From Rhodobacteraceae bacterium Alg238-R152 (GTDB lineage: Bacteria > Pseudomonadota > Alphaproteobacteria > Rhodobacterales > Rhodobacteraceae), in NCBI GenBank assembly GCA_900537125.1, contig UNRJ01000001.1, forward strand, positions 789,570-853,569: a DNA stretch of 64,000 bases, given 5' to 3'. Of this stretch, positions 6,786 to 25,542 are shown in pieces. The stretch's first letter is position 1; each line of letters begins with the position of its first letter. The notes beneath the pieces are model-generated. The model worked only from the letters and a program-made list of their open reading frames with translations, had not been told where the DNA came from and did no database searches. A program made the translations under genes and the position numbers.

Positions 6786-6823
6786 GAGACATTATTCCGA
6801 AGTTGCCTTTTTGAGCTTCTTGG

Positions 6824-6834
6824 TATACTTGTTA
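6824..6834 (+). promoter_or_regulatory. Candidate HutC operator, hutI/hutF intergenic
   Basis: The 11-mer TATACTTGTTA lies in the divergent hutI-hutF intergenic region and differs at one position from TATTCTTGTTA in the divergent hutD-hutC intergenic region (8819-8829), in the same orientation. Known HutC sites in pseudomonads contain CTTGTA-type half-sites, which supports, but does not prove, an operator role. The position would repress both hutIHGU and hutF. Confidence 0.45.
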
Positions 6835-6865
6835 CGGTTAAATGTCTACACATAATGAGGTGCGG

Positions 6866-8782: not shown

Positions 8783-8818
8783 ATCACGTTTCACCGCTCT
8801 GGGATTTATGAGTATATA

Positions 8819-8829
8819 TATTCTTGTTA
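8819..8829 (+). promoter_or_regulatory. Candidate HutC operator, hutD/hutC intergenic
   Basis: TATTCTTGTTA, preceded by an alternating TATATATA run, lies 28 bases upstream of the chosen hutC start. It matches the hutI/hutF intergenic motif at 10 of 11 positions. Position suggests autoregulation of hutC and control of hutD. Confidence 0.42.
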
Positions 8830-8857
8830 ACGCCAATTTTTAAGGTTGGGAACTACT

Positions 8858-9562: not shown

Positions 9563-10148
9563 TCGACCTGCTTACCTGTGCATGGATCTCGAATTTGCGC
9601 TATTCCCGACAATGCACTGAACAGAAGACTCCGCTTGGATTCTGGTTTTGCCAAAGTCCTTGAGTGATCGGAAAGAGGAGCCTGCTGTTTCGCCTAAGAC
9701 GCGCGTGCTGTGAAACTGATAGGTTTCTTGCCAAGAACCGTTTCGCTGCCGGAAGGCTGTTTGCAGTGACAGGAAACGTTGCTCAGATTGCAATCTCCCA
9801 GGCGATTGGGCCTCCTGTTGCCCGACTCATTCGACACTGCGCCGGGGTGGGCGGCTGTTCCACCCAAAAAAACTTTCAGAAGTTTTCCGTAAATTCGGCA
9901 GCCAAATTGGTGTTTGGATTGCCTCGGGTCCGAAGCAATCCTGTTGTTAGAAACCAAAATTGTGTTTCGTTAGAAAGGTCTACCTGGTCTCGGTGGAGTA
10001 TCTGTTGGGGCGGGGTTGACACAAATTCCAGTTATGTGAATTATATTTCATCGGCTGATATATATTGCGAACTCGGGAGGGTACGCGGAGGGCCGGTGAA
10101 ATGAGGTGACTTTCATCTCTATGATCCAATGCATGGGAGGAGTGTGTA
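9563..10148. other. Intergenic region between hutC and the ABC operon
   Basis: 586 bases without a supportable gene. The right third is AT-rich and carries a candidate promoter (10016-10046) and a strong GGGAGGAG ribosome binding site just before the ABC solute-binding gene. The left part shows no clear hairpin terminator for hutC. The regulator encoded in the downstream operon (SorC family) probably binds here, but I could not define its operator. Confidence 0.5.
10016..10046 (+). promoter_or_regulatory. Candidate sigma70 promoter of the ABC/kinase operon
   Basis: TTGACA at 10016-10021 is followed after 17 bases by AATTAT (10039-10044), or after 19 by TTATAT. It lies about 100 bases upstream of the solute-binding protein start and is the only consensus-like -35 in the region. 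Prediction by eye. Confidence 0.35.
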
Positions 10149-11168
10149 ATGGGGATCTTCGGAAAGAGAATTGTGGCGACCACGCTGATGGTGTCATCCT
10201 TGGCAGTGTCGGCAGGGGCGGCCCTTGCAGATGATGGGAAGCGTATCGCGTTCTTTGTTTCAGACTTGTCCAACGTGTTTCACCAGTCGCAAGCCGCGGC
10301 TGCCGAGAAATATGCGATGGAGAAGTATGGCGCAAAAGTTGTTGTGTTTGATGGTCAGGCCGACAGCGCGGTGATGACCCAAAACGTCGACCAAGTTGTT
10401 GCTGGTGGCTTTGACGCGGCAACGTTGCACATTTGGGATGCTGAGGCGGCAACGCCTGGTGTGATGGACGCGCTGGACGAGGGCATTGTCATGACCTCCT
10501 TCTTTAGCCCCATCACCGACACGGGCATTCCAACGGCCCGCAGCGATGAAGCATCGGTGTCGTTTGAAATGGGCGCCCAAATGGCGACCGCCTGGAAAGA
10601 GGCCCATCCAGACAAGCCGATTGTGATGGTGCAGCTTGGCTGGCCAAACCACACAGAGGTCAACTCAGGACGGACCGCGCCGTTTGTTGAGGGTGTGTTG
10701 TCCGTGGATGCGTCGGCTGAAAACCTTGGCGCGTTGGACTCCAGTAAAGGTCAGGAAGCGGCCAAACAGATCATTGTTGACCTGTTGACCCAGCGTCCAG
10801 AAGTGAACCTGATTTACTCGGAAGCATCAAACCTGACTGTTGGAACCATGGCCGGCCTGTCCCAACTTGGACGTGGCAAGTTTGAAAACGGCAAACCGTT
10901 GACAGAGATCGTGGCCAGCGTGGATTTCGACGCGGTTGAAGTGGACCACGTGTTTGATCCGGACTCGAGCCTGAAAGTGTCCATGGGTTTGCCACCGCTG
11001 GAAACAGCGATGGGCCGTATCGACCTGATCATGGACGTGCTTGAGGGTAAAGTTGCGCCGCAATCGGACACCGCTGAAGAGTTCTTCTACAAAGCTTATA
11101 CCATTTCCAATTGGACGATGGACAAAGCAGACGCTGAGAAGTGGTTGGACAGCCAGTTCGGCGGCTAA
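10149..11168 (+). CDS. Sugar-type ABC transporter periplasmic binding protein
   Basis: 339 residues. A Sec signal peptide (1-27, cleavage after AGAALA) precedes a type I periplasmic binding fold of the ribose/rhizopine group (RIAFFVSDLSNVFHQSQA at the mature N terminus). It should deliver the substrate to the importer encoded next. The lengths and order of importer genes match LsrB/EryG operons, but the ligand-contact pattern of LsrB (a PKL..GFF segment after the first strand) is absent, so AI-2 is unlikely. A polyol or pentose-like sugar is a reasonable guess. The 152-base gap to the ATPase gene holds a strong hairpin. Confidence 0.85.
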   Translation: MGIFGKRIVATTLMVSSLAVSAGAALADDGKRIAFFVSDLSNVFHQSQAAAAEKYAMEKYGAKVVVFDGQADSAVMTQNVDQVVAGGFDAATLHIWDAEAATPGVMDALDEGIVMTSFFSPITDTGIPTARSDEASVSFEMGAQMATAWKEAHPDKPIVMVQLGWPNHTEVNSGRTAPFVEGVLSVDASAENLGALDSSKGQEAAKQIIVDLLTQRPEVNLIYSEASNLTVGTMAGLSQLGRGKFENGKPLTEIVASVDFDAVEVDHVFDPDSSLKVSMGLPPLETAMGRIDLIMDVLEGKVAPQSDTAEEFFYKAYTISNWTMDKADAEKWLDSQFGG

Positions 11169-11183
11169 GCCAACACAAAGGCG

Positions 11184-11230
11184 GCTGGCGGTTCTGAGGT
11201 GACCGGGGATGGGTCATTTGGATCGCCAGC
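11184..11230 (+). other. Intercistronic hairpin after the binding-protein gene
   Basis: GCTGGCGGTTC (11184-11194) can pair with GGATCGCCAGC (11220-11230), 11 base pairs including two G-U pairs. A nested stem TGACC/GGTCA (11200-11204 with 11212-11216) sits inside. There is no T-run after it, so it is more likely an mRNA-stabilising or partial attenuation structure than a full terminator. Such structures often raise the level of the binding protein over the membrane components. Confidence 0.5.
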
Positions 11231-11320
11231 TTGCCAATATTGTTTGAGAATAGCGGCAAACACACAACGCTGAGGCGCCGCAAGTTGAGATGAAGTGCTT
11301 CGAGCCAGGGGGAAGCAGGC

Positions 11321-12832
11321 ATGACCGAAGAGCAGAAAATATCGGTGCTCTCCGTTGACGGGCTGACAAAAGATTATCCGGGGGTCCGGGCTGTCGACAA
11401 CGTCACATTTTCTATTCAAAACAGTGTGGTGCACTGTTTGGTGGGGGAAAACGGTGCTGGCAAATCGACGCTGGTAAAGATGCTGACCGGCGCGCTTGCG
11501 CCAACGACCGGTGCGATGACAGTGAATGGTAAGACTTATGCCCCAACAAGTCCGCAAGAAGCGCGTGTCAGCGGGATCGCAACCTTGTTCCAAGAGCTGC
11601 ACGTGGTCAACGAGCTGACGGTTTTGGAAAACCTGACGTTGGGCATGGAGAAAAGCCGATTTGGGTTCTTTGTGAAGTCGGACCTTGAAGACCGAGTGAC
11701 CCAGACTTTGGCCACGATTGAGCCTGCGATTGATCCGGCTGCGCGGGTGTCGACTTTGAGTGTCGCACAAAAGCAGATTGTTGAAATTGCACGCGCGGCG
11801 TCATCCGGTGCGAATATTATCATCATGGACGAACCCACAGCGGCGCTGTCAGAGCGCGAAGTCGAGCGTTTGTTCACGGTTATTCGGCGACTGCGTGAAA
11901 ACAATGTCACTGTGATCTATATCTCCCACAAGCTGGACGAGATTTTTGAATTGGGTGACACGGTCACGGTCATGCGTGACGGCAAACATATCACCACCTG
12001 CCCGCTGAGCGACGTGGACGGACGCGCGGAATTGATTGAAATGATGATTGGGCGGACGGTGTTTCAGAGCTATTCACCGCGGGGCAAGATCGGGGACAAA
12101 GTGGTGCTTAAGGCCGAAGGTCTGAACACCAAACTTCTGAAAGATGTGTCCTTTGACATCAAAGAAGGTGAGATCATTGGGTTTTATGGGCTGGTCGGGG
12201 CCGGAAAAACAGAGGTGGCACGGGCGTTGTTTGGCGCAGACACTTTTGACGGCAAGGTCACTTTTCACGGCAAACCCGGCGGACGGACACCCAAAGAAGC
12301 GATTGCCAAAGGCATTGCGCTGGTCCCGGAAGAACGCCGCACGCAGGGCCTGTTCACCAGTTTGACCATTCGTGAAAACGTGCCGGTGATGAACCTGCCT
12401 AGGGTGACGCAAAACGGTGTGTTCAAAGCTGAAGACGTGCGCACTGCGGCCGAGGCGTTTGTCACTCAGCTGGGCATCGCGACCAGTTCGATCGAGAAAC
12501 ACACAGAAAAGCTTTCTGGCGGAAATCAGCAAAAGGTTGTTCTGGCCAAGTGCCTGTTTTCGCAAGCAGACCTTCTGCTGTTGGATGAGCCAACGCGCGG
12601 GGTGGATGTTGGCGCAAAAACTGAAATTTATGAAATCATCAAAGACCTGGCAAACGAAGGAAACGCGGTGGCGGTGTTTTCCTCGGAGCTTGAAGAGGTT
12701 CTGGGCATTTGTGACCGTGTGTTTTTGATGTTTGACGGTTGCCTTCAGGAAGAAATCGAAAACGGCCCAAATGTGGATATCGCCCATATTTTGAATGTGG
12801 TGACCGGCGGTCAAGACGAGGACGCACGATGA
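11321..12832 (+). CDS. Sugar ABC transporter ATP-binding protein (two ABC domains)
   Basis: 503 residues with duplicated ABC domains, as in RbsA/LsrA/EryE. Domain 1 has Walker A GENGAGKSTL and Walker B IIIMDEPTAAL; domain 2 has a degenerate Walker A (GLVGAGKTEVARAL), signature LSGGNQQKVVLAKCL and Walker B LLLLDEPTRGVDVG. It energises import at the cytoplasmic face of the inner membrane. Its stop overlaps the permease start by four bases. Confidence 0.95.
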   Translation: MTEEQKISVLSVDGLTKDYPGVRAVDNVTFSIQNSVVHCLVGENGAGKSTLVKMLTGALAPTTGAMTVNGKTYAPTSPQEARVSGIATLFQELHVVNELTVLENLTLGMEKSRFGFFVKSDLEDRVTQTLATIEPAIDPAARVSTLSVAQKQIVEIARAASSGANIIIMDEPTAALSEREVERLFTVIRRLRENNVTVIYISHKLDEIFELGDTVTVMRDGKHITTCPLSDVDGRAELIEMMIGRTVFQSYSPRGKIGDKVVLKAEGLNTKLLKDVSFDIKEGEIIGFYGLVGAGKTEVARALFGADTFDGKVTFHGKPGGRTPKEAIAKGIALVPEERRTQGLFTSLTIRENVPVMNLPRVTQNGVFKAEDVRTAAEAFVTQLGIATSSIEKHTEKLSGGNQQKVVLAKCLFSQADLLLLDEPTRGVDVGAKTEIYEIIKDLANEGNAVAVFSSELEEVLGICDRVFLMFDGCLQEEIENGPNVDIAHILNVVTGGQDEDAR

Positions 12833-13854
12833 GCAGCGTGACAGACACTCTCCCTACACGGCCAACGCGGTCCAAAATGAGCGACGAAGGGTTCATCTCG
12901 TCCCTTGTGGCGGCGGTTGCGATCAGTCTCTTTCTGATTGCCTCGCTGTTGGTGCCCAATTTTTTCCAATGGCAGAACGTGGTCAATTTGGTCACCAACA
13001 ATTGGGCGGTGATTGCGCTTGGTGTGGGGGTGTCCTTCCTGTTGGTGTCTGGCAATTTTGACCTGTCCGTCGGCGGCATTGTGGCCTTGTCCGGTGTCTT
13101 GTCGGTCTGGTTTGCCCAAAGCACGGAGGGCGCAAATGCGCTGTCCACAGGGCTGGGGCTGCCTTATGGGCTTGCAATTGCATGTGCCCTGCTTGGGGCT
13201 TTGACCATTGGGGCGCTCAACGCGTTGTTTGTGGTGCGTTTTGGCATCCCATCGATCATTGTCACCTTGGGGACGATGATGGTGGCGCGGGGCATTGCGC
13301 AGGTCATCACCCATGGCTCGCAGCGCAACACAAACTTGCCAGAGGCCTTTGGGTATCTCGGAAATCTGAGTTTGTTTGGCACATCCATCAAATTTCCCGT
13401 GGTGCTTATGGGCGTGCTGTTGGTGGTTGCCATATTTGTGGAGCGGAAAATGGTGTTTGGCCGCATCACCTATTGGATTGGCGCCAACCCAGAGGCCGCA
13501 ACGCTGTCTGGCATTGATAGGGCGCGCCATATCACCAAGCTCTATCTGTTTAGTGCCGGTATTGCCGGGGTCGTAGGGATCCTTCTGGCGTCTGAGTACA
13601 AGTCCGGATTTTCCAACCGTGGTCTGCTGATGGAGTTTGATGCGCTGGTCATTGCGTTGCTTGGCGGTGTTGCCATTGCAGGTGGCTTTGGCTCCGTGAT
13701 TGGCATGTTCTTTGGGGCCATCATTCTCGCGGTGGTCACCTCTGCAGCCACGGGGTTGGTGCTCTCGCCGGACTGGCAGTTCATTCTCAAAGCGGTGGCC
13801 GTTTTCCTGGCGATTGTCACACAAACCTGGGCGCTGGCCCGTCGGAATAAGTGA
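12829..13854 (+). CDS. Sugar ABC transporter permease 1
   Basis: 341 residues from the ATG at 12829, which overlaps the ATPase stop (ATGA); a longer frame from 12739 lies inside the ATPase gene and is not used. The protein is a BPD_transp_2 permease with about nine hydrophobic segments and the conserved SGNFDLSVGGIVALSG and LLGGVAIAGGFGSVIGMFFGA. It forms half of the membrane channel together with the next gene product. Confidence 0.93.
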   Translation: MSSVTDTLPTRPTRSKMSDEGFISSLVAAVAISLFLIASLLVPNFFQWQNVVNLVTNNWAVIALGVGVSFLLVSGNFDLSVGGIVALSGVLSVWFAQSTEGANALSTGLGLPYGLAIACALLGALTIGALNALFVVRFGIPSIIVTLGTMMVARGIAQVITHGSQRNTNLPEAFGYLGNLSLFGTSIKFPVVLMGVLLVVAIFVERKMVFGRITYWIGANPEAATLSGIDRARHITKLYLFSAGIAGVVGILLASEYKSGFSNRGLLMEFDALVIALLGGVAIAGGFGSVIGMFFGAIILAVVTSAATGLVLSPDWQFILKAVAVFLAIVTQTWALARRNK

Positions 13855-14894
13855 GTACGATGTCGATGTCATCTCAATCCAAAACTGCGGAACTGAGCGT
13901 CACGTCTGGTGCGGCCAACTTCCTGCGCAACTACTACATCTACTTTGTGCTTGTGGCTGTTGTGGCGCTGCTCAGCCTGGCCAATCTGGATCAATTTGCC
14001 TTGTTTGAGCGCGGCAACTTTCTCAACAAGCGCAACATCATCAATATTCTGCGTGTGTCTGCGCCCATTCTTGTTGTCGCTGGCGCGTTCACATTGCTGA
14101 TGGTGTCAGGTTACATCGATTTGTCCATTGGCAGCACGATGGGGCTTACGGCGGTGATTTATGCGATGTTGGCGATCAATGGCATGCCGTTTGTGCCCGC
14201 CTTTTTGCTGACAATGCTGGCAGGTGCGGTGTTGGGAGCGATCAATGGGATTTTGGTTGTGCGTCTCAATATTACGCCGGTGATCGCAACGCTGATCACG
14301 CTGAGTTTGTTCAAAGGCATTGCGCTTTTGCTGGTGCAGGATGGGGTTTCGGCGATCAAATCCGGTGGTGGTTTAAAAATGCCAGCGTGGTTCAATGACT
14401 ATGGCCGGGACGGGGTGTTTCTCAAATTGCCGGCGGCCTTCTGGGTTGCCGTGGCGGTCACGCTGGTGCTGATTGTTGTGCAAAACCGCGGCAAGCTGGG
14501 CAAATACGCAGCCGCAACAGGCGGTAACCCAACCGCGGCCAAGCTCTCTGGCATCAACACTGGACGCACGGTTTTCCTGCTTTATGTCATCGTTGGTGTC
14601 ACCGCAGCCTTGGCCGGGATCGCCCGATCCAGCTTTATGTCTCTGGGGGATCCGCTGTCTGGTGACGGCATGGAGTTGACCGCGATCCTGGTGGTTCTGC
14701 TTGGCGGGACGGCGTTCAGCGGTGGCGAGGGGAGGGTGTTGCGCTCTTTTGTCGGTGCGCTGATCATCATGGCGCTGACAGTGGGCATGTTGACGATTGT
14801 CCCTGCGTATTATCAAACACTTGTAATTGGCGCGGCGCTTTTGACAGCGGCAGCCACCAACCACCTTGTTAGTCAAAAGGGCAAAGTATCGTGA
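13851..14894 (+). CDS. Sugar ABC transporter permease 2
   Basis: 347 residues from the GTG at 13851 (GTGA overlap with permease 1); ATG at 13860 is an equally possible start. Same family as the preceding permease (VSGYIDLSIGSTMGLTAV; VLLGGTAFSGGEGRVLRSF), giving a heterodimeric channel as in LsrC/LsrD. The next gene again overlaps by four bases. Confidence 0.93.
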   Translation: MSTMSMSSQSKTAELSVTSGAANFLRNYYIYFVLVAVVALLSLANLDQFALFERGNFLNKRNIINILRVSAPILVVAGAFTLLMVSGYIDLSIGSTMGLTAVIYAMLAINGMPFVPAFLLTMLAGAVLGAINGILVVRLNITPVIATLITLSLFKGIALLLVQDGVSAIKSGGGLKMPAWFNDYGRDGVFLKLPAAFWVAVAVTLVLIVVQNRGKLGKYAAATGGNPTAAKLSGINTGRTVFLLYVIVGVTAALAGIARSSFMSLGDPLSGDGMELTAILVVLLGGTAFSGGEGRVLRSFVGALIIMALTVGMLTIVPAYYQTLVIGAALLTAAATNHLVSQKGKVS

Positions 14895-15862
14895 GTTCCC
14901 TGACCCCAAATCCAGAACAAATGCGGCTCATCGTGCGGGTGTTGTCGATGCACTACGAAGAAGAGCGTGCGCAATCTGACATCGCCAAAGCGTTGGAGCT
15001 TTCAACCGCCAAAGTGAACCGTCTGATCAAGCAGGGCCGGGAACTTGGCATGGTGCAGATCACGATCAAAAGCCCGTTGATGCGCTTTTTTGATCTGGAA
15101 CGTGAAATTGCGGATCGCTGGTCTTTGAAACGGTGTTTGGTGGTACCGTCTGTGACGGGCAGCGAGACATCGACTTTAACCGAGGTGGGCAAGGGTGCTG
15201 CGAACCTGTTGCTGGATGCGATCCGGGACGGCGACAAGATTGCGGTCTCTGGTGGCAAAACTCTCAGCGTCATGATCGAGAATCTGTCGGCCAGCGCGGA
15301 ATATGACGTTGAGATAGTGCCAATGACCGGTGGCGTGCAGGGACAACACTACACTGACGTAAACCACATTGCGACACAGCTGGCCGACAAGTTGTCGGGC
15401 CGCGCGCGGCTCGTTCACGCGCCGCTACACGCGGATTCTGAGGGGGAACGCGATCTGGTGATGTCGGTTAAGTCCGTGCGCGAGGTCATGAGTGAGGCCC
15501 GCAGCGCCAATGTGGCTGTGGTCGGCATTGGGGCGGTGGTTGGTGCGGACAGCACATACTACATGGCCCACCCCGTCTCAGAGGTGGAGCGCAGACGGCT
15601 CTATAAAACCGGGGTGCGCAGCGAGTTTCTCGGCCACCTTATTCAGGAAGACGGCAGCGTTTCCGGCAACACCTACAACTCCCGTCTTGTGGCGCTGCTG
15701 CCGCAAGAATTGGCGCGCATTCCCGTCACCATTGCCATCGCGTCGGGGGCTGAGAAGGTCGAACCCATCGCCGCTGCGCTGAATGGTGGCTATTTCAATT
15801 CGCTTGTCACGGACGAGCACACCGCAACCGCCTTGCTGAAAGAGGAAGTGCTCAATGCTTGA
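14891..15862 (+). CDS. SorC/DeoR-family sugar-responsive transcription regulator
   Basis: 323 residues with a GTG start overlapping the permease stop. The N-terminal helix-turn-helix (QSDIAKALELSTAKVNRLIKQ) is followed by the phosphosugar-isomerase-like effector domain (GDKIAVSGGKTL; VVGIGAVV). LsrR and EryD belong to this family and respond to phosphorylated pathway intermediates, so this protein probably senses the product of the operon's FGGY kinase. Being inside the operon it would be co-expressed and self-regulated. Confidence 0.9.
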   Translation: MSSLTPNPEQMRLIVRVLSMHYEEERAQSDIAKALELSTAKVNRLIKQGRELGMVQITIKSPLMRFFDLEREIADRWSLKRCLVVPSVTGSETSTLTEVGKGAANLLLDAIRDGDKIAVSGGKTLSVMIENLSASAEYDVEIVPMTGGVQGQHYTDVNHIATQLADKLSGRARLVHAPLHADSEGERDLVMSVKSVREVMSEARSANVAVVGIGAVVGADSTYYMAHPVSEVERRRLYKTGVRSEFLGHLIQEDGSVSGNTYNSRLVALLPQELARIPVTIAIASGAEKVEPIAAALNGGYFNSLVTDEHTATALLKEEVLNA

Positions 15863-16862
15863 TCAACAGAAACACAACATGCTGACGCGTGAAATTGGCC
15901 GCTCCGGTATCCAGGCTTCTGCCATTGGGCTGGGCACTTGGGCCATTGGTGGCTGGATGTGGGGCGGCACCGATGAGGCCAAATCCATCAAAGCCATTCA
16001 GGCCTCAATTGACGAAGGCATCAGCCTGATCGACACGGCGCCGGCCTACGGGCAGGGCGTGGCTGAGGAGATTGTTGGCAAGGCCCTAAAAGGACGGCGT
16101 GACAAGGTGGTTTTGGCCACCAAATGCGGCTTGGTCTGGCACACGCAAAAAGGAAATCACTTCTTTGATTACGACAGCGGGCCGGTGCATCGGTACCTGG
16201 GGAAAGATGCGATCATTTATGAGGTGGAGCAAAGTCTGAAACGTTTGGGCACAGATGTGATTGACCACTACATCACCCATTGGCAGGATCCGACAACGCC
16301 GGTTGAAGAGACCATGGAAGCTTTGGAACTGCTCAAAACCCAAGGCAAGATCCGCTCGATTGGCGCTAGCAATACCACACCAGAGGACGTGGCCGCTTAT
16401 CTCGTCGCAGGGCAATTGGATGCGGTGCAGGAAGAGTATTCGATGATCAAGCGGGATCTGGACACCACAATGGCGCCTCTGTGTGTTGAACAAGGCGTGT
16501 CGATCCTGAGTTATTCGTCGCTCGCGCTGGGTTTGTTAAGTGGCAAAATTGGCCCGGATCGCGTGTTTGAGGGCGATGATCAACGCAAGGACAATCCACG
16601 GTTCTCGATGGCCAACCGCCAAAAAGTGGCGCAACTCATGCAGGCTATTTCAGAGGTTGCCGAAACACATGGGGCGACCTGCGCCCAAACGGTCATCGCC
16701 TGGACCGTGCAGCAACCGGGCATAACCTTTTCACTCTGTGGTGCGCGTGACGCGGGTCAAGCCGCAGAAAACGCCCAGGCTGGGCGCTTGCGACTGAGCA
16801 GCGACGATCTCGAAATCATCAGTGCCGCGGCTCAAAAGAACCTGACTGACCTCGACGGGTAA
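15855..16862 (+). CDS. Aldo/keto reductase
   Basis: 335 residues; the ATG at 15855 has an AGAGGAAG ribosome binding site and overlaps the regulator gene by eight bases. The AKR tetrad is complete: Asp and Tyr in LIDTAPAYGQG, Lys in VLATKCG, His in YITHWQDP. The fold is a cytoplasmic NADPH-dependent TIM barrel. In this operon it could reduce the aldehyde released by the aldolase or oxidise the incoming alcohol; the direction is unknown. Confidence 0.92.
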   Translation: MLDQQKHNMLTREIGRSGIQASAIGLGTWAIGGWMWGGTDEAKSIKAIQASIDEGISLIDTAPAYGQGVAEEIVGKALKGRRDKVVLATKCGLVWHTQKGNHFFDYDSGPVHRYLGKDAIIYEVEQSLKRLGTDVIDHYITHWQDPTTPVEETMEALELLKTQGKIRSIGASNTTPEDVAAYLVAGQLDAVQEEYSMIKRDLDTTMAPLCVEQGVSILSYSSLALGLLSGKIGPDRVFEGDDQRKDNPRFSMANRQKVAQLMQAISEVAETHGATCAQTVIAWTVQQPGITFSLCGARDAGQAAENAQAGRLRLSSDDLEIISAAAQKNLTDLDG

Positions 16863-16919
16863 CTCTCGTCACAATGAAACCTTTGCAACATCGCATGTGC
16901 TGCGGTGAACGGGAAAGCT

Positions 16920-18644
16920 ATGTCTGACGCACGCCAAAAAAATCTGGCTTTGATCAAAGATAACAATGCCTTTGACGTTGTTGTCGTTGGCGGCGGAGTG
17001 AATGGGATCGGGGTTTATAGAGACCTGTCGCTGCAAGGGCTGCGGGTTTTGCTGGTGGAGAAAAACGATTTTGCGTCAGGTTGCTCTGCGGCGCCATCGC
17101 GCATGATCCATGGTGGCCTGCGCTATTTGGAAAATGGTGAATTTGATTTGGTGCGGGAGTCATTGCAAGAGCGCGACGGGTTGTTGCGCAATGCGCCCCA
17201 CATGGTGAAGCCGCTGCCAACGGTGATCCCAATCACCTCCTTGTTTTCGGGCGTACTAAATTCTGCGGCGAGCTTTTTGGGGCGGCAAGGGAAACCGTCA
17301 AGTCGCGGTGCGCTGCCGATCAAATTGGGGCTGGGGTTGTATGACTGGGTGACCCGGAAAAGTCGCGCGGTGCCGAGACATGCCTTTTTTGGCGGGGCGG
17401 AAACCCGCAGGCGCTGGCCTGACCTCACAGCACAGGCAAAGTGTTCGGCGGTCTATTATGATGCGTGGATTTCGCATCCGGAACGGCTGTGTCTGGAGAT
17501 GATTTCCGATGTGAGTGACGCCGCGCCGCACTGCATCGCCCTAAACTATGCCGAGTTGCAAAAATCTGGAGACGCTTACACACTGACCTGTCAGCGTTCC
17601 GGCAAAAGTTGGGACATCAAGCCCCGCACAATTGTGCATGCAACGGGCGCTTGGCTGGATAAATCCGTGTCAAACTTGGCGGGCGCACCGGAGAAAAAGA
17701 TGGTTGCCGGCACCAAGGGTTCCCACCTGATCATCGACAATCCAGCGCTGGAAAAGGCGCTTGGTGGCCATATGGCCTATTTTGAGAATGCGGATGGGCG
17801 GGTGTGCGTTGTGTTCCCGTATCAGGGCAAAGTTCTGGCGGGCTCCACCGATATCCGGGTGGAAGAAGCCGCCCGTGTGCGGTGCGAAGCGGATGAGTTA
17901 AGCTACATCTTGGACTCTCTGAGATTGGTGTTTCCCAACATTGAGATGGCCGCCAAAGATGTGGTGTTTAGCTATTCGGGCATTCGGCCGCTGCCGCAAA
18001 GCACGCAGGAGTTCACCGGGCGTATTTCCCGTGGCCATGACGTAAAAGTGCTGTCCGGAGATGTGCCGCAGTTTTGTATGGTTGGCGGCAAGTGGACAAC
18101 ATTTCGCGCCTTTGCAGAACAAGCTGCCGACATGGTTCTGCAGGAGCTGGGCAAGCCCCGGCGCCGCGATACGCGTGGTTTGGCAATTGGCGGCGGCAAA
18201 GGCTATCCTGAGCGGCCTGAGGTGCTTCTCCAAGCTTTGCAGCAGCGCTTTGATATCAGCGCGGATCGGGCGCAGCACTTGGTGTCGCACTACGGAAGTG
18301 CAGCAACTTCGGTACAGGAGGCCTGCACCTCCTTTGGGGGGGATGTCTCCCTTGGCGAAGGTGTCCAGTATTCGAAAGCAGAGATACGTCGCCTTATCAC
18401 TGATGAACACGTTCAAACCCTCGCAGACATTGCGCTGCGGCGCACCTCTTTGGCGATCACCGGGCAGATATCCTTAGGGCTTATCGAGGTGCTGGCACAG
18501 GTGTTGTCAGAGGAGCTGGCCTTGTCGGCTGCGCAAGCCACAGCACAGAAAACGCAACTGATTGAAGAATTGTCGGACTTCTACGGGGTGACCTCGCAGA
18601 TGCTGGCCGAACGCACAAAACAATGGAGTATGAAATGCGCGTAA
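16920..18644 (+). CDS. GlpD/EryB-like FAD-dependent polyol-phosphate dehydrogenase
   Basis: 574 residues from the ATG at 16920; a GTG at 16905 is less likely. The N-terminal dinucleotide motif VVVVGGGVNGIGVYRDL is followed by GCSAAPSRMIHGGLRYLENG, the glycerol-3-phosphate dehydrogenase signature, and a C-terminal helical domain (about 390-574). Such enzymes oxidise a phosphorylated polyol to a keto-phosphate and pass electrons to quinone at the membrane. It is homologous to GlpD and to erythritol-pathway EryB; with the kinase and aldolase next to it, the substrate is probably a phosphorylated alditol or sugar acid rather than glycerol 3-phosphate. Confidence 0.85.
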   Translation: MSDARQKNLALIKDNNAFDVVVVGGGVNGIGVYRDLSLQGLRVLLVEKNDFASGCSAAPSRMIHGGLRYLENGEFDLVRESLQERDGLLRNAPHMVKPLPTVIPITSLFSGVLNSAASFLGRQGKPSSRGALPIKLGLGLYDWVTRKSRAVPRHAFFGGAETRRRWPDLTAQAKCSAVYYDAWISHPERLCLEMISDVSDAAPHCIALNYAELQKSGDAYTLTCQRSGKSWDIKPRTIVHATGAWLDKSVSNLAGAPEKKMVAGTKGSHLIIDNPALEKALGGHMAYFENADGRVCVVFPYQGKVLAGSTDIRVEEAARVRCEADELSYILDSLRLVFPNIEMAAKDVVFSYSGIRPLPQSTQEFTGRISRGHDVKVLSGDVPQFCMVGGKWTTFRAFAEQAADMVLQELGKPRRRDTRGLAIGGGKGYPERPEVLLQALQQRFDISADRAQHLVSHYGSAATSVQEACTSFGGDVSLGEGVQYSKAEIRRLITDEHVQTLADIALRRTSLAITGQISLGLIEVLAQVLSEELALSAAQATAQKTQLIEELSDFYGVTSQMLAERTKQWSMKCA

Positions 18645-19477
18645 GCACTAAAGCGCGGATGAACCGCATGTTCACAAATGGCGGGTGTCTTGATGTGGCA
18701 ATTGACCATGGCGTCTGTAACGAGCCCAGCTTCATGGTGGGTCTGGAAGATATGCCAAGTGTGATGGACACGCTGATCAAGGCCAAGCCGGACGCAATCC
18801 AATGTGCTTATGGTCAGGCTGACTTGCTGCAAAACCGCCCCGAAAAGGATAAGCCGGCGTTGGTGATGCGCATCGACATGGGCAACCCCTACAACGACCA
18901 GCGCCATCGGGTGATGTGGTCGATGCTGCAAAACGCCGATGAACCGATTATTGGCGCGTTGGAAATGGATGCAGCGGCAGTGGTGGTTAATCTGTTCATG
19001 TTGCCCGACGAGCCGGAGCTGTTCCGTCAGTGTGTCGAAAACATCAGCCGTGTGCGGGCGTCCTGTGACAAATACGGTATGCCATTGATGATTGAGCCGC
19101 TTGTGATGCTGCCCAACGATGTGCGCGGTGGTTATCAAGTTGATGGCGACGCTGAGAAAATTGTGACGCTCGTGCGCTTGGCTTCAGAAATGGGCGCAGA
19201 CATCATCAAGGCCGATCCCACTGAAAACGCTGAGGATTTTCACCGCGTGATTGAGGCTGCTCGGGTGCCCGTGCTGGTGCGTGGCGGCGGCAAAGATGAT
19301 CTTCAATCTGTGCTGAACAAATCCGCTGCCCTTTTGGCGCAAGGCGCGCAGGGGATGGTCTACGGGCGCAATATCTATCAGCATGACAATCCGAAGGCCG
19401 TGGTCGCCGCGTTGATGGCGCTGATCCACTCCGGCGCTTCGGGTGACGAAGCTTGGGATATATACAACCGTGGTTAA
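18635..19477 (+). CDS. Class I aldolase of the DeoC/LacD/LsrF family
   Basis: 280 residues; ATG at 18635 with a GGAG site six bases away, overlapping the flavoprotein gene by ten bases. The TIM-barrel Schiff-base lysine is visible in ADIIKADPT, and CLDVAIDHG near the N terminus and VYGRNIYQHD near the C terminus match the DhnA/LsrF family. LsrF in the AI-2 pathway is a thiolase-like relative, whereas LacD and FbaB are true aldolases. Here it most likely cleaves the keto-phosphate made by the kinase and dehydrogenase; the products are unknown. Confidence 0.87.
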   Translation: MRVSTKARMNRMFTNGGCLDVAIDHGVCNEPSFMVGLEDMPSVMDTLIKAKPDAIQCAYGQADLLQNRPEKDKPALVMRIDMGNPYNDQRHRVMWSMLQNADEPIIGALEMDAAAVVVNLFMLPDEPELFRQCVENISRVRASCDKYGMPLMIEPLVMLPNDVRGGYQVDGDAEKIVTLVRLASEMGADIIKADPTENAEDFHRVIEAARVPVLVRGGGKDDLQSVLNKSAALLAQGAQGMVYGRNIYQHDNPKAVVAALMALIHSGASGDEAWDIYNRG

Positions 19478-20990
19478 ATCAGCGCAAAAATACCTCTTAG
19501 GGCTGGATGCAGGCAACACCGTGATCAAGGCGGTGCTGTTTGATCTAGAGGGCCAACAGGTTGCGATGCAGGTATTGGATGGCCAGACCAACACGCCGCA
19601 GCCAGGCTACGTTGAGCGTGATTTGGGCGAGCTTTGGACCAATGCTGGCACGGTGATTTCTGCGTGCGTCGCGGAAGCTGGGATTGCGGCGACGCAAATC
19701 GCGGCGGTGGGCTGTGCCGGACATGGCAACGGGCTTTATCTGCTGGATAAATCCGGGGCGCCGTTGCTTGGCATCCAATCCCTGGATACCCGCGCGGCGG
19801 CCGTGGCTGAAGAGTTGTCGCAGGCCAATGGGGAGCGCTTACACGAACTCTGCTTGCAAAAACCATGGCCCTCGCAAACCCCAGCGCTATTGGCGTGGGT
19901 GAAGCGGCATCAGCCGGACCTTTATGCCGCCATCGGCACGGTGCTGTTGTGCAAGGATTTCATCACCAACCGACTGACAGGCGCGCGGGTCAGTGACATC
20001 TCCGACATGTCCGGCTGTGGCCTCACGCGGATGCCTCAGGCCACTTATGACGCAGAGCTTTTGGCGCTGTACGGCTTGGCTGACGCAGAAGCGATGTTGC
20101 CAAGTCTGATCGACCCTGCCGATATTGCGGGCCATGTCACGACCGAGGCTGCAAAAGTCACCGGTTTGGCAGAGGGGACGCCGGTGATCGGAGGCTATTT
20201 CGACGTGGTCTCTAGTGCTTTGGGCTCTGGGGCAGGGTGTGCGGGGGATGCCTCCATTATTGCGGGCACCTGGAGTATCAATCAGGTGTTCTCTGACGCG
20301 CCAGTGGTTGATCCCAACGTCTTTATGGTCAGCGCGTTTGGCGCCGGCCAGTTTGTCAATATCGAGGCCAGCGCCACCTCTGCGGTGAATTTGGAGTGGT
20401 ACGTCCGTGAATTTGTGGAGCGGGGGGGGCATCACGACGACCCCTTTGGGTACTGCAATCAACGCGTTGGGGAAATTGCTCCGCGACTGGATGATCCATT
20501 TTTCCACCCGTTTCTTTACGGCTCGGGGCAGGGCGCAGAATTTCGCGCCGGGTTTTATGGAGTTGCTGGCTGGCACTCTGAAAGTCATATGCTGCGTGCG
20601 CTGTTTGAAGGGGTGATGTTTGAGCACCGCCGTCACATTGCGGTTTTGCAGGATGCCGGGGTGACCATTGACCGTGCAATCTTGTCAGGCGGCGGCGCCC
20701 GAAGCCCGCATTGGCCGCAAATGTTTGCCGATTGTTTGGGCGTGCCAATTGTGGTGGCTGAGGCGCAGGAAACTGGCGCGCTGGGTGCCGCAATTGGCGC
20801 TGCGGTGGCCGTGGAATTGGTGGCGGATTACGCGGAAGGCATCGCCAAAATGACACGCCCACGCCAGACCTTTGCGCCCAATCCGGCGATGCACGCGCAT
20901 TACCAAAAACGCGCCAGAATTTTTGCGGATCTGTCAGACGCGATGCAACCTATCTGGGCGCAGATGCGCTCTCTGGAGGACAACTCATGA
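19470..20990 (+). CDS. FGGY-family carbohydrate kinase
   Basis: 506 residues from the GTG at 19470, which overlaps the aldolase stop by eight bases; an upstream GTG at 19443 lies well inside the aldolase gene. The two-lobed FGGY fold is evident from LLGLDAGNTVIKAVLFD at the start, VGCAGHGNGLYLLDKSG, and the C-terminal ILSGGGARSPHWPQMFAD. It phosphorylates the imported substrate in the cytoplasm. LsrK and EryA are members; the sequence does not decide the substrate. Confidence 0.92.
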   Translation: MVKSAQKYLLGLDAGNTVIKAVLFDLEGQQVAMQVLDGQTNTPQPGYVERDLGELWTNAGTVISACVAEAGIAATQIAAVGCAGHGNGLYLLDKSGAPLLGIQSLDTRAAAVAEELSQANGERLHELCLQKPWPSQTPALLAWVKRHQPDLYAAIGTVLLCKDFITNRLTGARVSDISDMSGCGLTRMPQATYDAELLALYGLADAEAMLPSLIDPADIAGHVTTEAAKVTGLAEGTPVIGGYFDVVSSALGSGAGCAGDASIIAGTWSINQVFSDAPVVDPNVFMVSAFGAGQFVNIEASATSAVNLEWYVREFVERGGHHDDPFGYCNQRVGEIAPRLDDPFFHPFLYGSGQGAEFRAGFYGVAGWHSESHMLRALFEGVMFEHRRHIAVLQDAGVTIDRAILSGGGARSPHWPQMFADCLGVPIVVAEAQETGALGAAIGAAVAVELVADYAEGIAKMTRPRQTFAPNPAMHAHYQKRARIFADLSDAMQPIWAQMRSLEDNS

Positions 20991-21997
20991 AAGCCATTGG
21001 TTTTGTAAACTCTCTGCCAATCGAGCATGCAGACAGCCTGTTTGAAGTTGATATGCCCACGCCTGAAATTGGCGCCAAGGATATTCTGGTGGCGGTGGAA
21101 GCCATCTCGGTCAATCCGGCAGACGCCAAACGGCGCATCCGCACTGCTGTGGACGCGTCACATGAGGTTCCGATGATTTTGGGCTATGACGCCGTTGGCC
21201 GCATTGAGGCCATCGGGTCAGATGTGTCCGGATTCAAGGTGGGCGATCGGGTCTGGTATGCGGGCGATGCAAACCGCCCCGGGTCTTATGCGGAACTACA
21301 GGCAGTGGATCACCGGATTGTGTCCCATGCGCCCGGCAACGTGGCACCCAAGGCCTCTGCAGCTTTGCCGTTGGTGTCGCTCACAAGCTGGGAGATGCTG
21401 TTTGACCGATTGCAGGTGGCTTCCGGGCCGTCGCGCAAATCACTGTTGGTGATTGGTGGGGCCGGAGGGGTCGGGTCCATTACACAACAGTTGGCGCGAA
21501 AGCTCACGGGTTTGGAAGTTATTGCCACGGCGTCGCGCAAGGAAAGCGCACAGTGGTGTCGAAAGATGGGGGCTCATGAGGTTGTGAACCACTGCGATCT
21601 GATTGCGGACACACGGGCCCATGGCCGGGAGTATGTAGACTTCATCGCGCAATATGCCGACACCGCCCAGCACTGGGACGCCATGTGTGACTTGATCGCC
21701 CCGCAGGGCCGGATCGGAACCATTGTGGAAACCGATGAAAAGCTGGACATCTCTGCGCTACAAGGCAAATCAGCTGCTTTGATGTGGGAGTTGATGTTCA
21801 CACGCTCTTTGTTTGGCACGCCAGACATGGCGCGCCAGGGGCAGATTCTGGCCCGCATGGCGCGCCTGGTGGATGACGGTATCGTCAGCACAACAGAGAC
21901 CACCACGCTCAATGGTTTGAGTGCAGACACCCTGAAAGAGGCGCATGCGTTGATTGAACGTGGCACCATGATTGGCAAGCTTGTGGTTGCCTTCTGA
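20987..21997 (+). CDS. Quinone-oxidoreductase-like medium-chain dehydrogenase
   Basis: 336 residues, ATGA overlap with the kinase gene. The fold is zinc-alcohol-dehydrogenase-like, with the NAD(P)-binding GGAGGVGSITQQLA in the middle, but it lacks the catalytic Cys/His zinc ligands and the structural cysteines, so it belongs to the zinc-independent quinone oxidoreductase branch. It probably reduces or oxidises an intermediate of the operon's pathway. Confidence 0.88.
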   Translation: MKAIGFVNSLPIEHADSLFEVDMPTPEIGAKDILVAVEAISVNPADAKRRIRTAVDASHEVPMILGYDAVGRIEAIGSDVSGFKVGDRVWYAGDANRPGSYAELQAVDHRIVSHAPGNVAPKASAALPLVSLTSWEMLFDRLQVASGPSRKSLLVIGGAGGVGSITQQLARKLTGLEVIATASRKESAQWCRKMGAHEVVNHCDLIADTRAHGREYVDFIAQYADTAQHWDAMCDLIAPQGRIGTIVETDEKLDISALQGKSAALMWELMFTRSLFGTPDMARQGQILARMARLVDDGIVSTTETTTLNGLSADTLKEAHALIERGTMIGKLVVAF

Positions 21998-22020
21998 TCC
22001 AAACAGCCGAGACCAAGAAT

Positions 22021-23634
22021 ATGACAATTCCAACCCCTTTAGAGGGGGACTACGACTACATCATCGTCGGGGCGGGGACAGCGGGATGTGTGCTGGCAAA
22101 CCGCCTGACGGAAGATCCCAAAATCCGGGTGCTTTTGTTGGAGGCAGGCAAGTCAGACAACTACCATTGGGTGCACATCCCGGTGGGCTATTTGTATTGC
22201 ATCGGCAACCCGCGCACCGACTGGATGATGAAAACTGCCGAAGAGCCGGGTTTGAATGGGCGGGCGCTGGTCTATCCACGTGGCAAGGTGCTGGGCGGCT
22301 GTTCCTCAGTGAACGGCATGATCTACATGCGCGGGCAGGCCGCGGACTATGATCACTGGCGGCAATTGGGGAATGCCGGTTGGGCCTGGGATGACGTCTT
22401 GCCGTATTTTCGTAAATCGGAGGATCACCACGCCGGTGAGACCGCGTTGCATGGGGTGGGTGGTGAATGGAAGGTGTCCAAACAACGTTTGGGCTGGGAC
22501 ATCCTGGAGGCGGTTCAGGACGGCGCGCGCGAATTTGGCATCGCACCACGGGCCGACTTCAACGATGGGAACAATGAAGGCAGTGGCCTGTTTGAAGTGA
22601 ACCAGAAAGGCGGAGTGCGGTGGAACACGTCCAAGGCATTCTTGCGACCAGCCATCAAACGCCCCAACCTGCGCGTGCTTACTGAGGCGCATACCGATCA
22701 CGTGGTGCTAGAAGGCACGCGGGTCACGGGGGTGTGTTTTACCCACAAGGGGCAGAAAACATTGGTCAAAGCCAGTGCCGAGGTTTTGCTTGCGGCAGGG
22801 GCGATCAACTCTCCCAAAATTCTGGAACTGTCGGGTATTGGACGCCCGGACGTGTTGAATAAGCACGGCATTGATGTGCGCCATATGAGTGCAGGTGTTG
22901 GCGAAAACCTGCAAGATCACTTGCAAATTCGCACAGTATTTAAGGTCAAAAATGCCAAAACGCTGAACACCATGGCAAATTCGATCATTGGCAAAGCGCG
23001 GATTGGGTTGCAATATATGTTCACCCAATCAGGTCCGATGTCGATGGCGCCCAGTCAATTTGGCATGTTCACCAAATCAGATCCTGCGATGGCGACGCCC
23101 GATCTGGAATACCATGTGCAGCCCTTGTCCACCGACAAATTGGGGGACCCATTGCATCCCTATCCGGCCATCACTGTGTCTGTCTGTAACTTACGGCCAG
23201 AGAGTGTTGGAAGTTGCCACATCTCAACCTCGGACCGGCAGGTTCAACCAGACATTCAGTTGAATTACTTGTCTGCTGCCAAAGACCGGCAAGTGGCCCT
23301 GACGTCTGTGAAGCAAGTGCGCGAGATTATGACGGCAACCGCGCTTAAACCTCATGCGCCAGAGGAGATGCTCCCGGGACCTGAGGCGCAAAGTGACGAC
23401 GCACTTCTTTCTGCCATTGGCGATATTGCCACCACGATTTTTCACCCGGTTGGCACCTGCAAAATGGGCACGGATGATGCCGCTGTGGTGGGGCCGGATT
23501 TGCGGGTGAGGGGGCTTGAAGGATTGCGCGTGGTAGATGCCTCAATCATGCCAAAAATTGTGTCGGGCAACACCGCGTCACCCGTGATTATGATCGCAGA
23601 AAAGGCCGCCGACCTTATCCGGGAGGCCCATTAG
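22021..23634 (+). CDS. GMC-family FAD oxidoreductase (choline dehydrogenase-like)
   Basis: 537 residues. FAD motif DYIIVGAGTAGCVLANRLTE at the N terminus, GMC signature GKVLGGCSSVNGMIYMRG at about residue 85, and C-terminal FHPVGTCKMG with the catalytic His plus SGNTASPVIMIAEKA. GMC dehydrogenases oxidise primary alcohols and feed quinone. Twenty-three bases after the previous gene and touching the next, so part of the same operon. It could perform the first oxidation of an alcohol substrate. Confidence 0.93.
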   Translation: MTIPTPLEGDYDYIIVGAGTAGCVLANRLTEDPKIRVLLLEAGKSDNYHWVHIPVGYLYCIGNPRTDWMMKTAEEPGLNGRALVYPRGKVLGGCSSVNGMIYMRGQAADYDHWRQLGNAGWAWDDVLPYFRKSEDHHAGETALHGVGGEWKVSKQRLGWDILEAVQDGAREFGIAPRADFNDGNNEGSGLFEVNQKGGVRWNTSKAFLRPAIKRPNLRVLTEAHTDHVVLEGTRVTGVCFTHKGQKTLVKASAEVLLAAGAINSPKILELSGIGRPDVLNKHGIDVRHMSAGVGENLQDHLQIRTVFKVKNAKTLNTMANSIIGKARIGLQYMFTQSGPMSMAPSQFGMFTKSDPAMATPDLEYHVQPLSTDKLGDPLHPYPAITVSVCNLRPESVGSCHISTSDRQVQPDIQLNYLSAAKDRQVALTSVKQVREIMTATALKPHAPEEMLPGPEAQSDDALLSAIGDIATTIFHPVGTCKMGTDDAAVVGPDLRVRGLEGLRVVDASIMPKIVSGNTASPVIMIAEKAADLIREAH

Positions 23635-23925
23635 ATGACTGTATTTGTGGTTGTTGCCGAGGTGGAGGCTGGTGATGGTCATGAGGAGACCATGGCCGCG
23701 GAACTCGATGTGTTGGCCAAAGCATCACGCGCAGAGGCCGGCTGTGTGCAATACAGCCTTTGTGAGGAGGAAGGCGCCCTTGGAACGTGGCTGATTTATG
23801 AGGTTTGGCAGTCGGAGATGCACTGGCGGCAGCACCTAGAGACGGATGTGTTTCGGGCCTTTAAGTTTGATGTTTTGCCCAGCATTGGTCGCTTGTCTGC
23901 CCGAAAGTTCCGGCTTGTTCGTTAG
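23635..23925 (+). CDS. ABM-domain protein, LsrG-like (antibiotic biosynthesis monooxygenase fold)
   Basis: 96 residues, starting on the base after the GMC stop. A single ferredoxin-like ABM domain (FVVVAEVEAGDGHEE; WLIYEVWQSEMHWRQH; HLETDVFRAFK). Small ABM proteins include heme-free oxygenases and the isomerase LsrG, which processes phospho-AI-2. Length and operon position beside kinase, class I aldolase and SorC regulator resemble LsrG, but the family is broad and the reaction is not determined. Confidence 0.8.
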   Translation: MTVFVVVAEVEAGDGHEETMAAELDVLAKASRAEAGCVQYSLCEEEGALGTWLIYEVWQSEMHWRQHLETDVFRAFKFDVLPSIGRLSARKFRLVR

Positions 23926-24049: not shown

Positions 24050-24063
24050 ATTAGGTGTTTGAT

Positions 24064-25542
24064 ATGTTCGATGGGATGCAGCGTCGCGTCGCTTCATTGT
24101 GGTTTCCCCGCCTCGCAAGTGACCGGGTTCTGCGGCGCTGCCCCGTGGATGGCCCGTTTGCGGTGACGCTAGAACAGAAAAATGCCAATCGTATTTACTG
24201 CCTCAATGCCGTCGCGATCCAGCAAGGTCTGCACTCAGATATGACTTATGCGGATGCGCGCGCCTTTTGCCCAGACCTACAAAGCTGTGTGGCGGAGCCG
24301 GAACAGGACCAACGGTTTCTGCGCCTGCTGTGCCGGTGGGCCACACGCTATTGTCCTTGGGTTGGCTTAGAGGGCAATGACGGTCTGGTGATGGATGTCA
24401 CCGGGTCAGCGCATTTATTTGGTGGGGAAAATGCAATGCTGGCGGATATGCGCAGCCGCCTGATGCGCGCCGGATTGTTGGTGCAGGTTGGTTTGGCGGA
24501 TACGCGCGGCGCGGCCTGGGCTTTGGCGCATTATCAGGAAGGCATTGCCCCACGTGGCAAGATGCTGGCCACGTTACGCGCTCTACCGATTGCGGCATTA
24601 CGGATTGATGAACAGATGTCGATCACTTTGCAGCGGCTTGGACTGCGTAGCATTGGCGACCTCGTGCAGGCCCCGCGTGCGCCGCTTAATCGCCGGTTTG
24701 GGCCCGCGCTGTTGCGGCGGCTGGATCAGGCCCTGGGGGAGTTACCCGAAGAGGTTTCCCCACAAGTTGCCCCACCACATTATGCGGTGCGCATGACCCT
24801 GCCAGAGCCAATTGGTCTAATCTCGGATGTTATGGCAGGGGCGGAGCGGCTTCTTGTTCAGCTCTGTGCGAAACTCAAACGTCAGGAAACAGGGGCACGA
24901 CAGCTCCGCCTTACGCTGCACCGGGTTGACCAAGGACAGCAACAGGTCGAGCTGCGACTGGCCCGTCCGCTGCGCGACGCGGGCCGCATTTTGCCCCTGT
25001 TTGAACGCGGGTTGGCAGAGGTTGATGCGGGGTTTGGCATTGATATGCTGAGGCTGGAGGCCACACAGGTCGAACCTCTGCCCGCGCAACAAATCAGCCA
25101 TGTCTCCGGTTGCGGAAAAGACAAGCTGGATGATTTGATCTCGCGGTTGGGTACAAGGATTGGTTTGGAAAATATCCAACGGTTTCTGCCAGCGGATAGC
25201 CATATTCCAGAGCGTAGTTTTATCATTGCCCCCGCGGCTTATTCAGAACCTGCCAACGGTTGGTCCTGCGCGCGCCCGCGCCCAATTTGTCTCTTTCCCC
25301 CAGAGCCAATTTCTGGACAAGGCACACACCCTCCCAAACATTTCCGCTGGCGGCGTATGGCGTTAACCACTGGTCGGGCAACGGGCCCTGAGCGTATTGC
25401 GCCTGAATGGTGGCTAGATGATGAGAAGTGGCATTCAGGTCTGCGCGACTATTGGCGCGTGGAAACGACACTGGGGCGTCGGTTGTGGCTGTTTTACACG
25501 CCGCAAAACCCAGGCTGGTTTGTGCAGGGAGAATTTGCATGA
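24064..25542 (+). CDS. imuB: ImuB, Y-family polymerase-like mutagenesis factor
   Basis: 492 residues from the ATG at 24064 (AGGTG site); GTG at 24055 is an alternative. The protein has a Y-family polymerase-like body (RRVASLWFPRLASDRVLRR; VMDVTGSAHLFGG) but lacks the catalytic acidic residues, as known for ImuB, and a long C-terminal part rich in Pro. ImuB links the DnaE2 polymerase to the sliding clamp during SOS mutagenesis. The gene is directly behind an SOS box and overlaps dnaE2 by four bases. The usual upstream partner imuA is absent from this locus. Confidence 0.9.
   Translation: MFDGMQRRVASLWFPRLASDRVLRRCPVDGPFAVTLEQKNANRIYCLNAVAIQQGLHSDMTYADARAFCPDLQSCVAEPEQDQRFLRLLCRWATRYCPWVGLEGNDGLVMDVTGSAHLFGGENAMLADMRSRLMRAGLLVQVGLADTRGAAWALAHYQEGIAPRGKMLATLRALPIAALRIDEQMSITLQRLGLRSIGDLVQAPRAPLNRRFGPALLRRLDQALGELPEEVSPQVAPPHYAVRMTLPEPIGLISDVMAGAERLLVQLCAKLKRQETGARQLRLTLHRVDQGQQQVELRLARPLRDAGRILPLFERGLAEVDAGFGIDMLRLEATQVEPLPAQQISHVSGCGKDKLDDLISRLGTRIGLENIQRFLPADSHIPERSFIIAPAAYSEPANGWSCARPRPICLFPPEPISGQGTHPPKHFRWRRMALTTGRATGPERIAPEWWLDDEKWHSGLRDYWRVETTLGRRLWLFYTPQNPGWFVQGEFA

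Follow-up and report, generated by a model that had tools for sequence, protein, structure and literature searches.

The window analysed here, a 64,000-nucleotide stretch of the 4.27-Mb genome of Rhodobacteraceae bacterium Alg238-R152, contains at positions 10149-23925 a run of twelve open reading frames (ORFs), all on the + strand, that probably forms an inducible operon for the catabolism of a sugar alcohol. This is the simplest reading of its three-enzyme core, which comprises an FGGY-family kinase (Kin), a GlpD-like flavoprotein and a class I aldolase (Ald) and which, judging from the protein families, would phosphorylate, oxidise and cleave an imported polyol. The operon is not peculiar to Alg238-R152; it is real and widely shared among bacteria, and the co-occurrence of its genes is far beyond chance.

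Gene order and recurrence across genomes

Both the twelve genes and the family names given to them in the initial annotation are borne out by ORF calls and by Pfam/NCBIfam profile searches. The first four genes encode an importer (hereafter window-type) consisting of a binding protein (SBP; 10149-11168, Peripla_BP_4), an AraG/XylG/LsrA-like double-domain sugar ABC ATPase (11321-12832, two ABC_tran stretches) and two permeases (12829-13854 and 13851-14894, both BPD_transp_2). They are followed by genes for a SorC-family sugar-responsive regulator (14891-15862, Sugar-bind 206 bits), an aldo/keto reductase (AKR; 15855-16862, Aldo_ket_red), the GlpD-like FAD dehydrogenase, which probably acts on a polyol phosphate (16920-18644, DAO and DAO_C), the class I Schiff-base aldolase of the DhnA/LsrF type (18635-19477, DeoC/LacD family) and Kin (19470-20990), which belongs to the FGGY carbohydrate kinase family with FGGY_N and FGGY_C matches of 178.8 and 89.7 bits, above cut-off. 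The last three genes encode a quinone-reductase-like protein of the zinc-binding alcohol dehydrogenase (ADH) family (QOR; 20987-21997, TIGR02817 390 bits, cut-off 284), a GMC flavoprotein oxidoreductase (22021-23634, GMC_oxred_N and GMC_oxred_C) and an ABM-domain protein (23635-23925, ABM 60.5 bits). The genes had been described as mostly overlapping by 4-10 bases, which holds for seven of the eleven junctions (4, 4, 4, 8, 10, 8 and 4 bases, using starts at 16920, 18635 and 19470). The GMC and ABM genes are flush, with zero bases between them, and gaps of 23, 57 and 152 bases occur at the QOR/GMC, AKR/GlpD and SBP/ATPase junctions, respectively. Alternative starts exist for the GlpD-like gene (GTG 16905 or ATG 16920) and for Kin (GTG 19443 or 19470); for Ald, the start at 18635 is more likely than that at 18623. 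A candidate sigma-70-like promoter (TTGACA-17-AATTAT, 10 of 12 consensus matches) lies 5' of the first gene at 10016-10044 on the + strand; the consensus match is its sole basis, and 11 promoter-like sites were found, as compared with 6.7 +/- 2.7 in shuffles.

A genome scan with Ald yielded 194 pattern stretches, 186 of which encode relatives. The analysis covered the best 80, which biases the set to close relatives. When the presence of each gene was scored by identity cut-offs set by the authors, Ald and the GlpD-like protein were found in all 80 loci, AKR and SorC in 79 each, Kin in 78, GMC in 69, QOR in 21 and ABM in eight. Moreover, the gene-neighbourhood comparison suggested in the initial annotation revealed that 76 of the 80 loci have SorC-AKR-GlpD-Ald-Kin as an uninterrupted run in one direction. 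The other four comprise three short, contig-end loci (L027, L060 and L066) and one with a SorC gene at the far end (L019). The overlaps recur as well, with medians of -8 for Ald/Kin (n=68), -10 for GlpD/Ald (n=72) and -11 for SorC/AKR (n=75). When the 1211 ORFs that do not belong to the known genes were clustered, no further gene proved to be a constant companion; the most widespread clusters spanned nine loci.

The twelve proteins are 95-100% identical to their counterparts in a Shimia metagenome-assembled genome (L006). Within the genus, Ald has a match in six of 24 genomes (own counted) and in none of the 16 others in the relatives set; in the class, in 10 of 385 genomes (own counted, E 1e-20), including a distant one with 34% identity; and in the order, in 23 of 390, namely 15 at 78-100% and eight at 50-55% identity. 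The gene set is thus accessory. Among 72,556 plasmid records, 194 match Ald at E 1e-20 (86 of Rhizobium, 74 of Sinorhizobium), and 14 of these show less than 60% identity. Orthologous operons on pRL12, p42b and Sinorhizobium meliloti pSymB (at about 515.4-526.8 kb) have a common type of importer and the core through GMC, with no matches for QOR and ABM. In Rhizobium etli p42b (L087:62-4460), the operon lies directly 3' of thiamine biosynthesis genes (thiC, thiO, thiS and those for thiazole synthase and thiamine phosphate synthase). On an Alloyangia plasmid (L088:14787-15859), the annotation splits the GMC gene into two separate pieces, and a divergent FGGY kinase/SDR/ABC cluster adjoins it.

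The predicted pathway and its enzymes

In the predicted pathway, a CUT2-type ABC importer would bring the polyol into the cell, where Kin, to judge from its family, would phosphorylate a terminal hydroxyl. The conserved GlpD positions suggest that the flavoprotein would then oxidise the carbon adjacent to the phosphorylated one to yield a ketose 1-phosphate, and electrons would pass to the respiratory chain. Ald, as its fold and residues imply, would form a Schiff base via K196 and cleave the C3-C4 bond, releasing dihydroxyacetone phosphate (DHAP) and an aldehyde. AKR and GMC would act on the compound that enters the pathway or on the aldehyde that leaves it, in either direction: AKR might reduce the aldehyde product or, just as well, an aldose to the alditol ahead of Kin, and GMC may oxidise alcohols at the start or the end of the pathway. 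Handling of the aldehyde by AKR, GMC and QOR, as put forward in the initial annotation, is one possibility among these. The SorC regulator probably senses a phosphorylated intermediate. The initial annotation had already proposed import, phosphorylation, oxidation by a flavoprotein to a keto-phosphate and retro-aldol cleavage, and these steps are supported as predictions.

By BLAST against a 23-protein reference set, which also served for the comparisons below, Kin is 37.6% identical to RL_RS33910, 28% to EryA and 26.5% to LsrK, and the GlpD-like protein is 40.6% identical to RL_RS33905 and 29% to EryB. The GlpD-like protein is 27-29% identical to E. coli GlpD and EryB, EryB itself being 50% identical to E. 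coli GlpD, and it remains below the GlpD equivalog cut-offs (285.2 bits against 360, and 260.6 against 352); by these comparisons, it represents a subfamily separate from both. It keeps H50, R54, Y55, R317, R332 and K354 and has serine for T270, all of which we take to be GlpD site positions with functional roles. RL_RS33910-RL_RS33905 of Rhizobium johnstonii pRL12, on which no paper turned up in the literature searched, is the closest non-orthologous pair among the proteins compared and has the same two-enzyme logic. Its locus differs in having a DeoR regulator, an adjoining EryEFG-type importer and a nearby class II aldolase, whereas the aldolase of the operon is of class I. EryEFG-type importers accompany pairs of the pRL12 kind on pRL12 itself (L108) and at L128, L133, L135-L137 and L139; other FGGY/GlpD-like pairs have importers annotated as CUT1-type (L127 and L130) or lie near an aquaporin gene on a Rubrobacter plasmid (L131). 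This variety of importers fits a general module of polyol kinase and polyol-phosphate dehydrogenase. At L132, orthologues of the importer, AKR (59%) and Ald (69%) lie beside a different Kin (29%) and GlpD-like protein (46% to that of pRL12), which are encoded on the opposite strand, and neither SorC nor GMC has a match; here, Kin and the GlpD-like protein behave as a replaceable pair and Ald stays with the importer.

Ald, a TIM-barrel protein with a Schiff-base lysine, falls among the class I aldolases of the DhnA/LsrF type and is nearest, by sequence and by model, to MJ0400 (with DHAP) and LsrF. K196, presumably the Schiff-base lysine, is invariant among the relatives aligned. A sister operon, found in Thioclava, Rhizobium and Rhodobacterales relatives, encodes an aldolase of the same family that is about 50% identical to Ald. 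Instead of the FGGY kinase and the GlpD-like protein, it has a PfkB kinase and a Gfo/Idh/MocA dehydrogenase in all eight loci inspected (L092, L107 and L140-L145) and a D-lyxose/D-mannose-isomerase-family protein in seven, with no match in L142. These families were named on L092 alone, which supplied the query proteins, at scores below equivalog cut-offs; two of the eight order genomes with an aldolase of this kind (G891 and G1090) and most plasmid records below 60% identity fall outside this inspection. An L092-like importer lies beside the sister operon in L143 and L144. Ketose phosphates are commonly reached by an isomerase plus a kinase, so that the two aldolase subfamilies plausibly receive one type of substrate, each by a route of its own.

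AKR and GMC usually accompany the core, and QOR and ABM are optional. The reduced gene content of L103, a 19-kb locus with importer, SorC, GlpD-like protein, Ald and Kin and no AKR or GMC match, suggests that these five elements make up the core. AKR is placed outside it because of L103, and GMC because of L103, L132, the R. tropici plasmid locus (L091), L106, L104 and L138, none of which has a GMC match; in L138 the gene set is otherwise present, and in L104 AKR, GlpD-like protein, Ald and Kin were found with no match for importer or SorC. AKR has D60, Y65, K90 and H142, which we take to be the catalytic tetrad, and its best NCBIfam model is methylglyoxal reductase, at 264.7 of 550 bits far under the cut-off. 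GMC scores below the choline dehydrogenase cut-offs.

The core is served by two exchangeable importers. The window-type importer occurs in 17 of the 80 loci, alone in 13 and beside the common type (SBP, ATPase and one permease) in four; the common type is found alone in 61, and two contig-end loci have neither SBP. The two types are distant relatives, about 36% identical in their ATPases and about 30% in their permeases, and no close copy of the common-type SBP was found in the Alg238-R152 genome, where the best match is 28%. On a quick tree of AKR, GlpD-like protein, Ald and Kin, built with no mixture model and no bootstrap from 71 rows (the Alg238-R152 operon, the 67 of 80 loci with all four proteins called, and L086, L090 and L106) that include near-copies and the long branch of L106, presence of the window type requires six changes, at least five of them forced by starred branches, as against 13.1 in shuffles. 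Importer types are thus clustered on the tree yet have been swapped repeatedly on one core. Ruegeria sp. Alg231-54 carries two core copies on separate contigs (L014 and L023), one per importer type. The PDB sequences nearest to SBP are those of Thermotoga RbsB (E 3e-7; 3.7e-9 with the family profile), and a fold search with the SBP model shows only the sugar-binding-protein fold of this class. No close PDB relative of either operon importer was found with the window-type, common-type and sister SBPs and the pRL12 relative as queries, and the ATPase is below the cut-off of every one of the 25 NCBIfam models shown. The pRL12 relative resembles AauA (9i1m, E 1.3e-83), which binds D-ribulose (PMC12307932); this clue to the substrate was dropped, as that SBP is not part of the operon.

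Substrate and competing explanations

The initial annotation regarded the operon as a combination of lsr and ery parts. This was not upheld: by sequence, none of the proteins tested is orthologous to an Lsr or Ery protein, the homology search of SBP, Kin and Ald against Lsr and Ery proteins gave no orthologue by identity or equivalog cut-off, and the scarcity of ABM and QOR among the 80 loci does not fit it either. With the E. coli lsr operon it shares an FGGY kinase, an LsrF-fold aldolase, a SorC regulator, a double ATPase with two permeases and an ABM protein, but at 26-33% identity or with no match, and it adds the GlpD-like protein, AKR, GMC and QOR. It is highly improbable that AI-2 (autoinducer 2) or a related diketone is taken up and destroyed, with ABM and Ald acting as LsrG and LsrF. 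LsrK does top the PDB list for Kin, LsrF is among the nearest Ald structures, LsrR is the second-ranked regulator model and the ABM gene closes the operon; however, Kin (NF008187, 194.6 of 528 bits), which is nearer to RL_RS33910, Ald (NF006081, 102.2 of 297 bits; 26.7% identity to LsrF, fold shared) and SorC (NF011947, 161.8 of 486 bits) all fall below the Lsr equivalog cut-offs, neither SBP and LsrB nor ABM and LsrG match at E 1e-3, and ABM is found in only one locus in ten. The lsr pathway is not known to involve a GlpD-like protein. With the ery loci of Rhizobium and Brucella, the operon shares an FGGY kinase, a GlpD-type flavoprotein, a SorC regulator and a CUT2 importer. The identities to EryA and EryB given above, for which the pRL12 proteins were used, do not indicate orthology, SBP and EryG do not match at E 1e-3, the SorC regulator is 29% identical to LsrR and EryD alike, and the pairing of SorC regulator and ABC importer corresponds at the superfamily level only, with two permeases versus the single EryF. 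The pRL12 ery locus has EryC, TpiB and RpiB, whereas the operon is without those isomerases; their absence, claimed earlier for EryC, EryH and the RpiB type, was confirmed in that no isomerase family has a Pfam match among the twelve proteins, the search being limited to these and the rest of the genome not searched. By sequence, the likeness to lsr and ery is that of superfamilies often recruited to sugar operons, at the family level only.

If a sugar alcohol is the substrate, a pentitol, giving glycolaldehyde, is a first guess, and a tentative one; the branched sugar or unusual polyol favoured by the initial annotation is possible, and nothing found points there. Less likely is entry as an aldose (or as aldose and alditol by the two importer types), the aldose being what AKR would reduce to the alditol before Kin, the GlpD-like protein and cleavage. 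AKR is better conserved than Kin and the GlpD-like protein (mean pairwise distance 0.25 versus 0.33 and 0.40) and almost always present, both importers occur on one core in four loci, and the sister operon usually has a sugar-isomerase-family protein, all of which would fit; L103 has no AKR match, though, and the best AKR model is methylglyoxal reductase. Rather unlikely, too, is that Kin and the GlpD-like protein produce a tetrulose phosphate from a C4 polyol (threitol, for instance), with Ald working synthetically, e.g., joining erythrose 4-phosphate and DHAP. The EryEFG-type importers adjoining the nearest pairs speak for it, as does L133, where a weak aldolase match (28%) lies beside pair and importer, and PMC3599248 reports that some ery loci contain a gene for a putative fructose bisphosphate aldolase. 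On the other hand, the pRL12 pair is only 38-41% identical to that of the operon, SBP lacks an EryG match, and the twelve proteins include no isomerase toward erythrose 4-phosphate.

Several points weigh against sugar-alcohol cleavage as the role of the operon. The EryEFG-type importers hint at C4 polyols for the relatives, which complicates cleavage, as cleavage of a C4 polyol would release formaldehyde. The conserved Schiff-base lysine is compatible with cleavage and synthesis alike, and LsrF, which has the same fold as Ald, is a thiolase. AKR (79 of 80) and GMC (69 of 80) are frequent, and their placement outside the core depends on the few loci named above. The distances between loci correlate only moderately across the genes (r 0.24 to 0.79; 0.47 for Ald and Kin), and the SBP model, with a pLDDT of 59, is too poor for ligand inference.

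Flanking genes, literature and significance

Upstream of the operon, at 1560-9562, lies an ORF run that by eye resembles a histidine utilisation (hut) cluster, with a putative HutC-type GntR regulator (8846-9562) matched in 12 of 24 genus genomes (own counted, E 1e-40). Directly downstream, at 24055-28922, are putative ImuB-like and DnaE2-like polymerase genes, also recognised by eye, with no gene for ImuA between the operon and the ImuB-like gene. Within the genus, the ImuB-like protein falls into two groups, 64-77% identical to that of Alg238-R152 in four genomes and about 50-54% in 17 others.

A whole-operon orthologue with a named substrate was looked for and none was found. No paper on the operon was among the matches listed in the open-access literature, searched by gene family and by position-estimated locus tags of S. 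meliloti, pRL12 and R. etli p42b; subscription papers lie mostly outside this search, and papers may have been missed. The passages seen of PMC4581636, PMC4053727 and PMC5498481 make no mention of it. In S. meliloti, the psicose genes SupABCD (Smb20484-87; PMC4961836) appear by tag and position to be neighbours of the operon, not the operon itself. SMb20504, which a table of PhaR data (PMC12542648) lists as a putative sugar-binding protein, is possibly the SBP of the S. meliloti operon. FGGY kinase families are treated in PMC3245297. Sugar-alcohol operons as a kind are already known; the enzyme combination and the importer exchange look new. The chance that they represent an alphaproteobacterial pathway not yet described, with an FGGY kinase, a GlpD-like flavoprotein of its own subfamily, a DhnA-type aldolase, two interchangeable importers and a sister route via isomerase and PfkB kinase, seems slightly less than even.

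The operon occurs in various Alphaproteobacteria, among them two model strains, S. meliloti 1021 and R. johnstonii 3841. In the records used, its genes bear generic names on pRL12 and no annotation on pSymB, and labels such as 'glycerol-3-phosphate dehydrogenase/oxidase', 'class I fructose-bisphosphate aldolase' and 'FGGY-family carbohydrate kinase' are generic or misleading. If the proposed pathway is correct, it would add a kinase/flavin dehydrogenase/aldolase route to sugar-alcohol catabolism, and these three labels could be replaced in many genomes.

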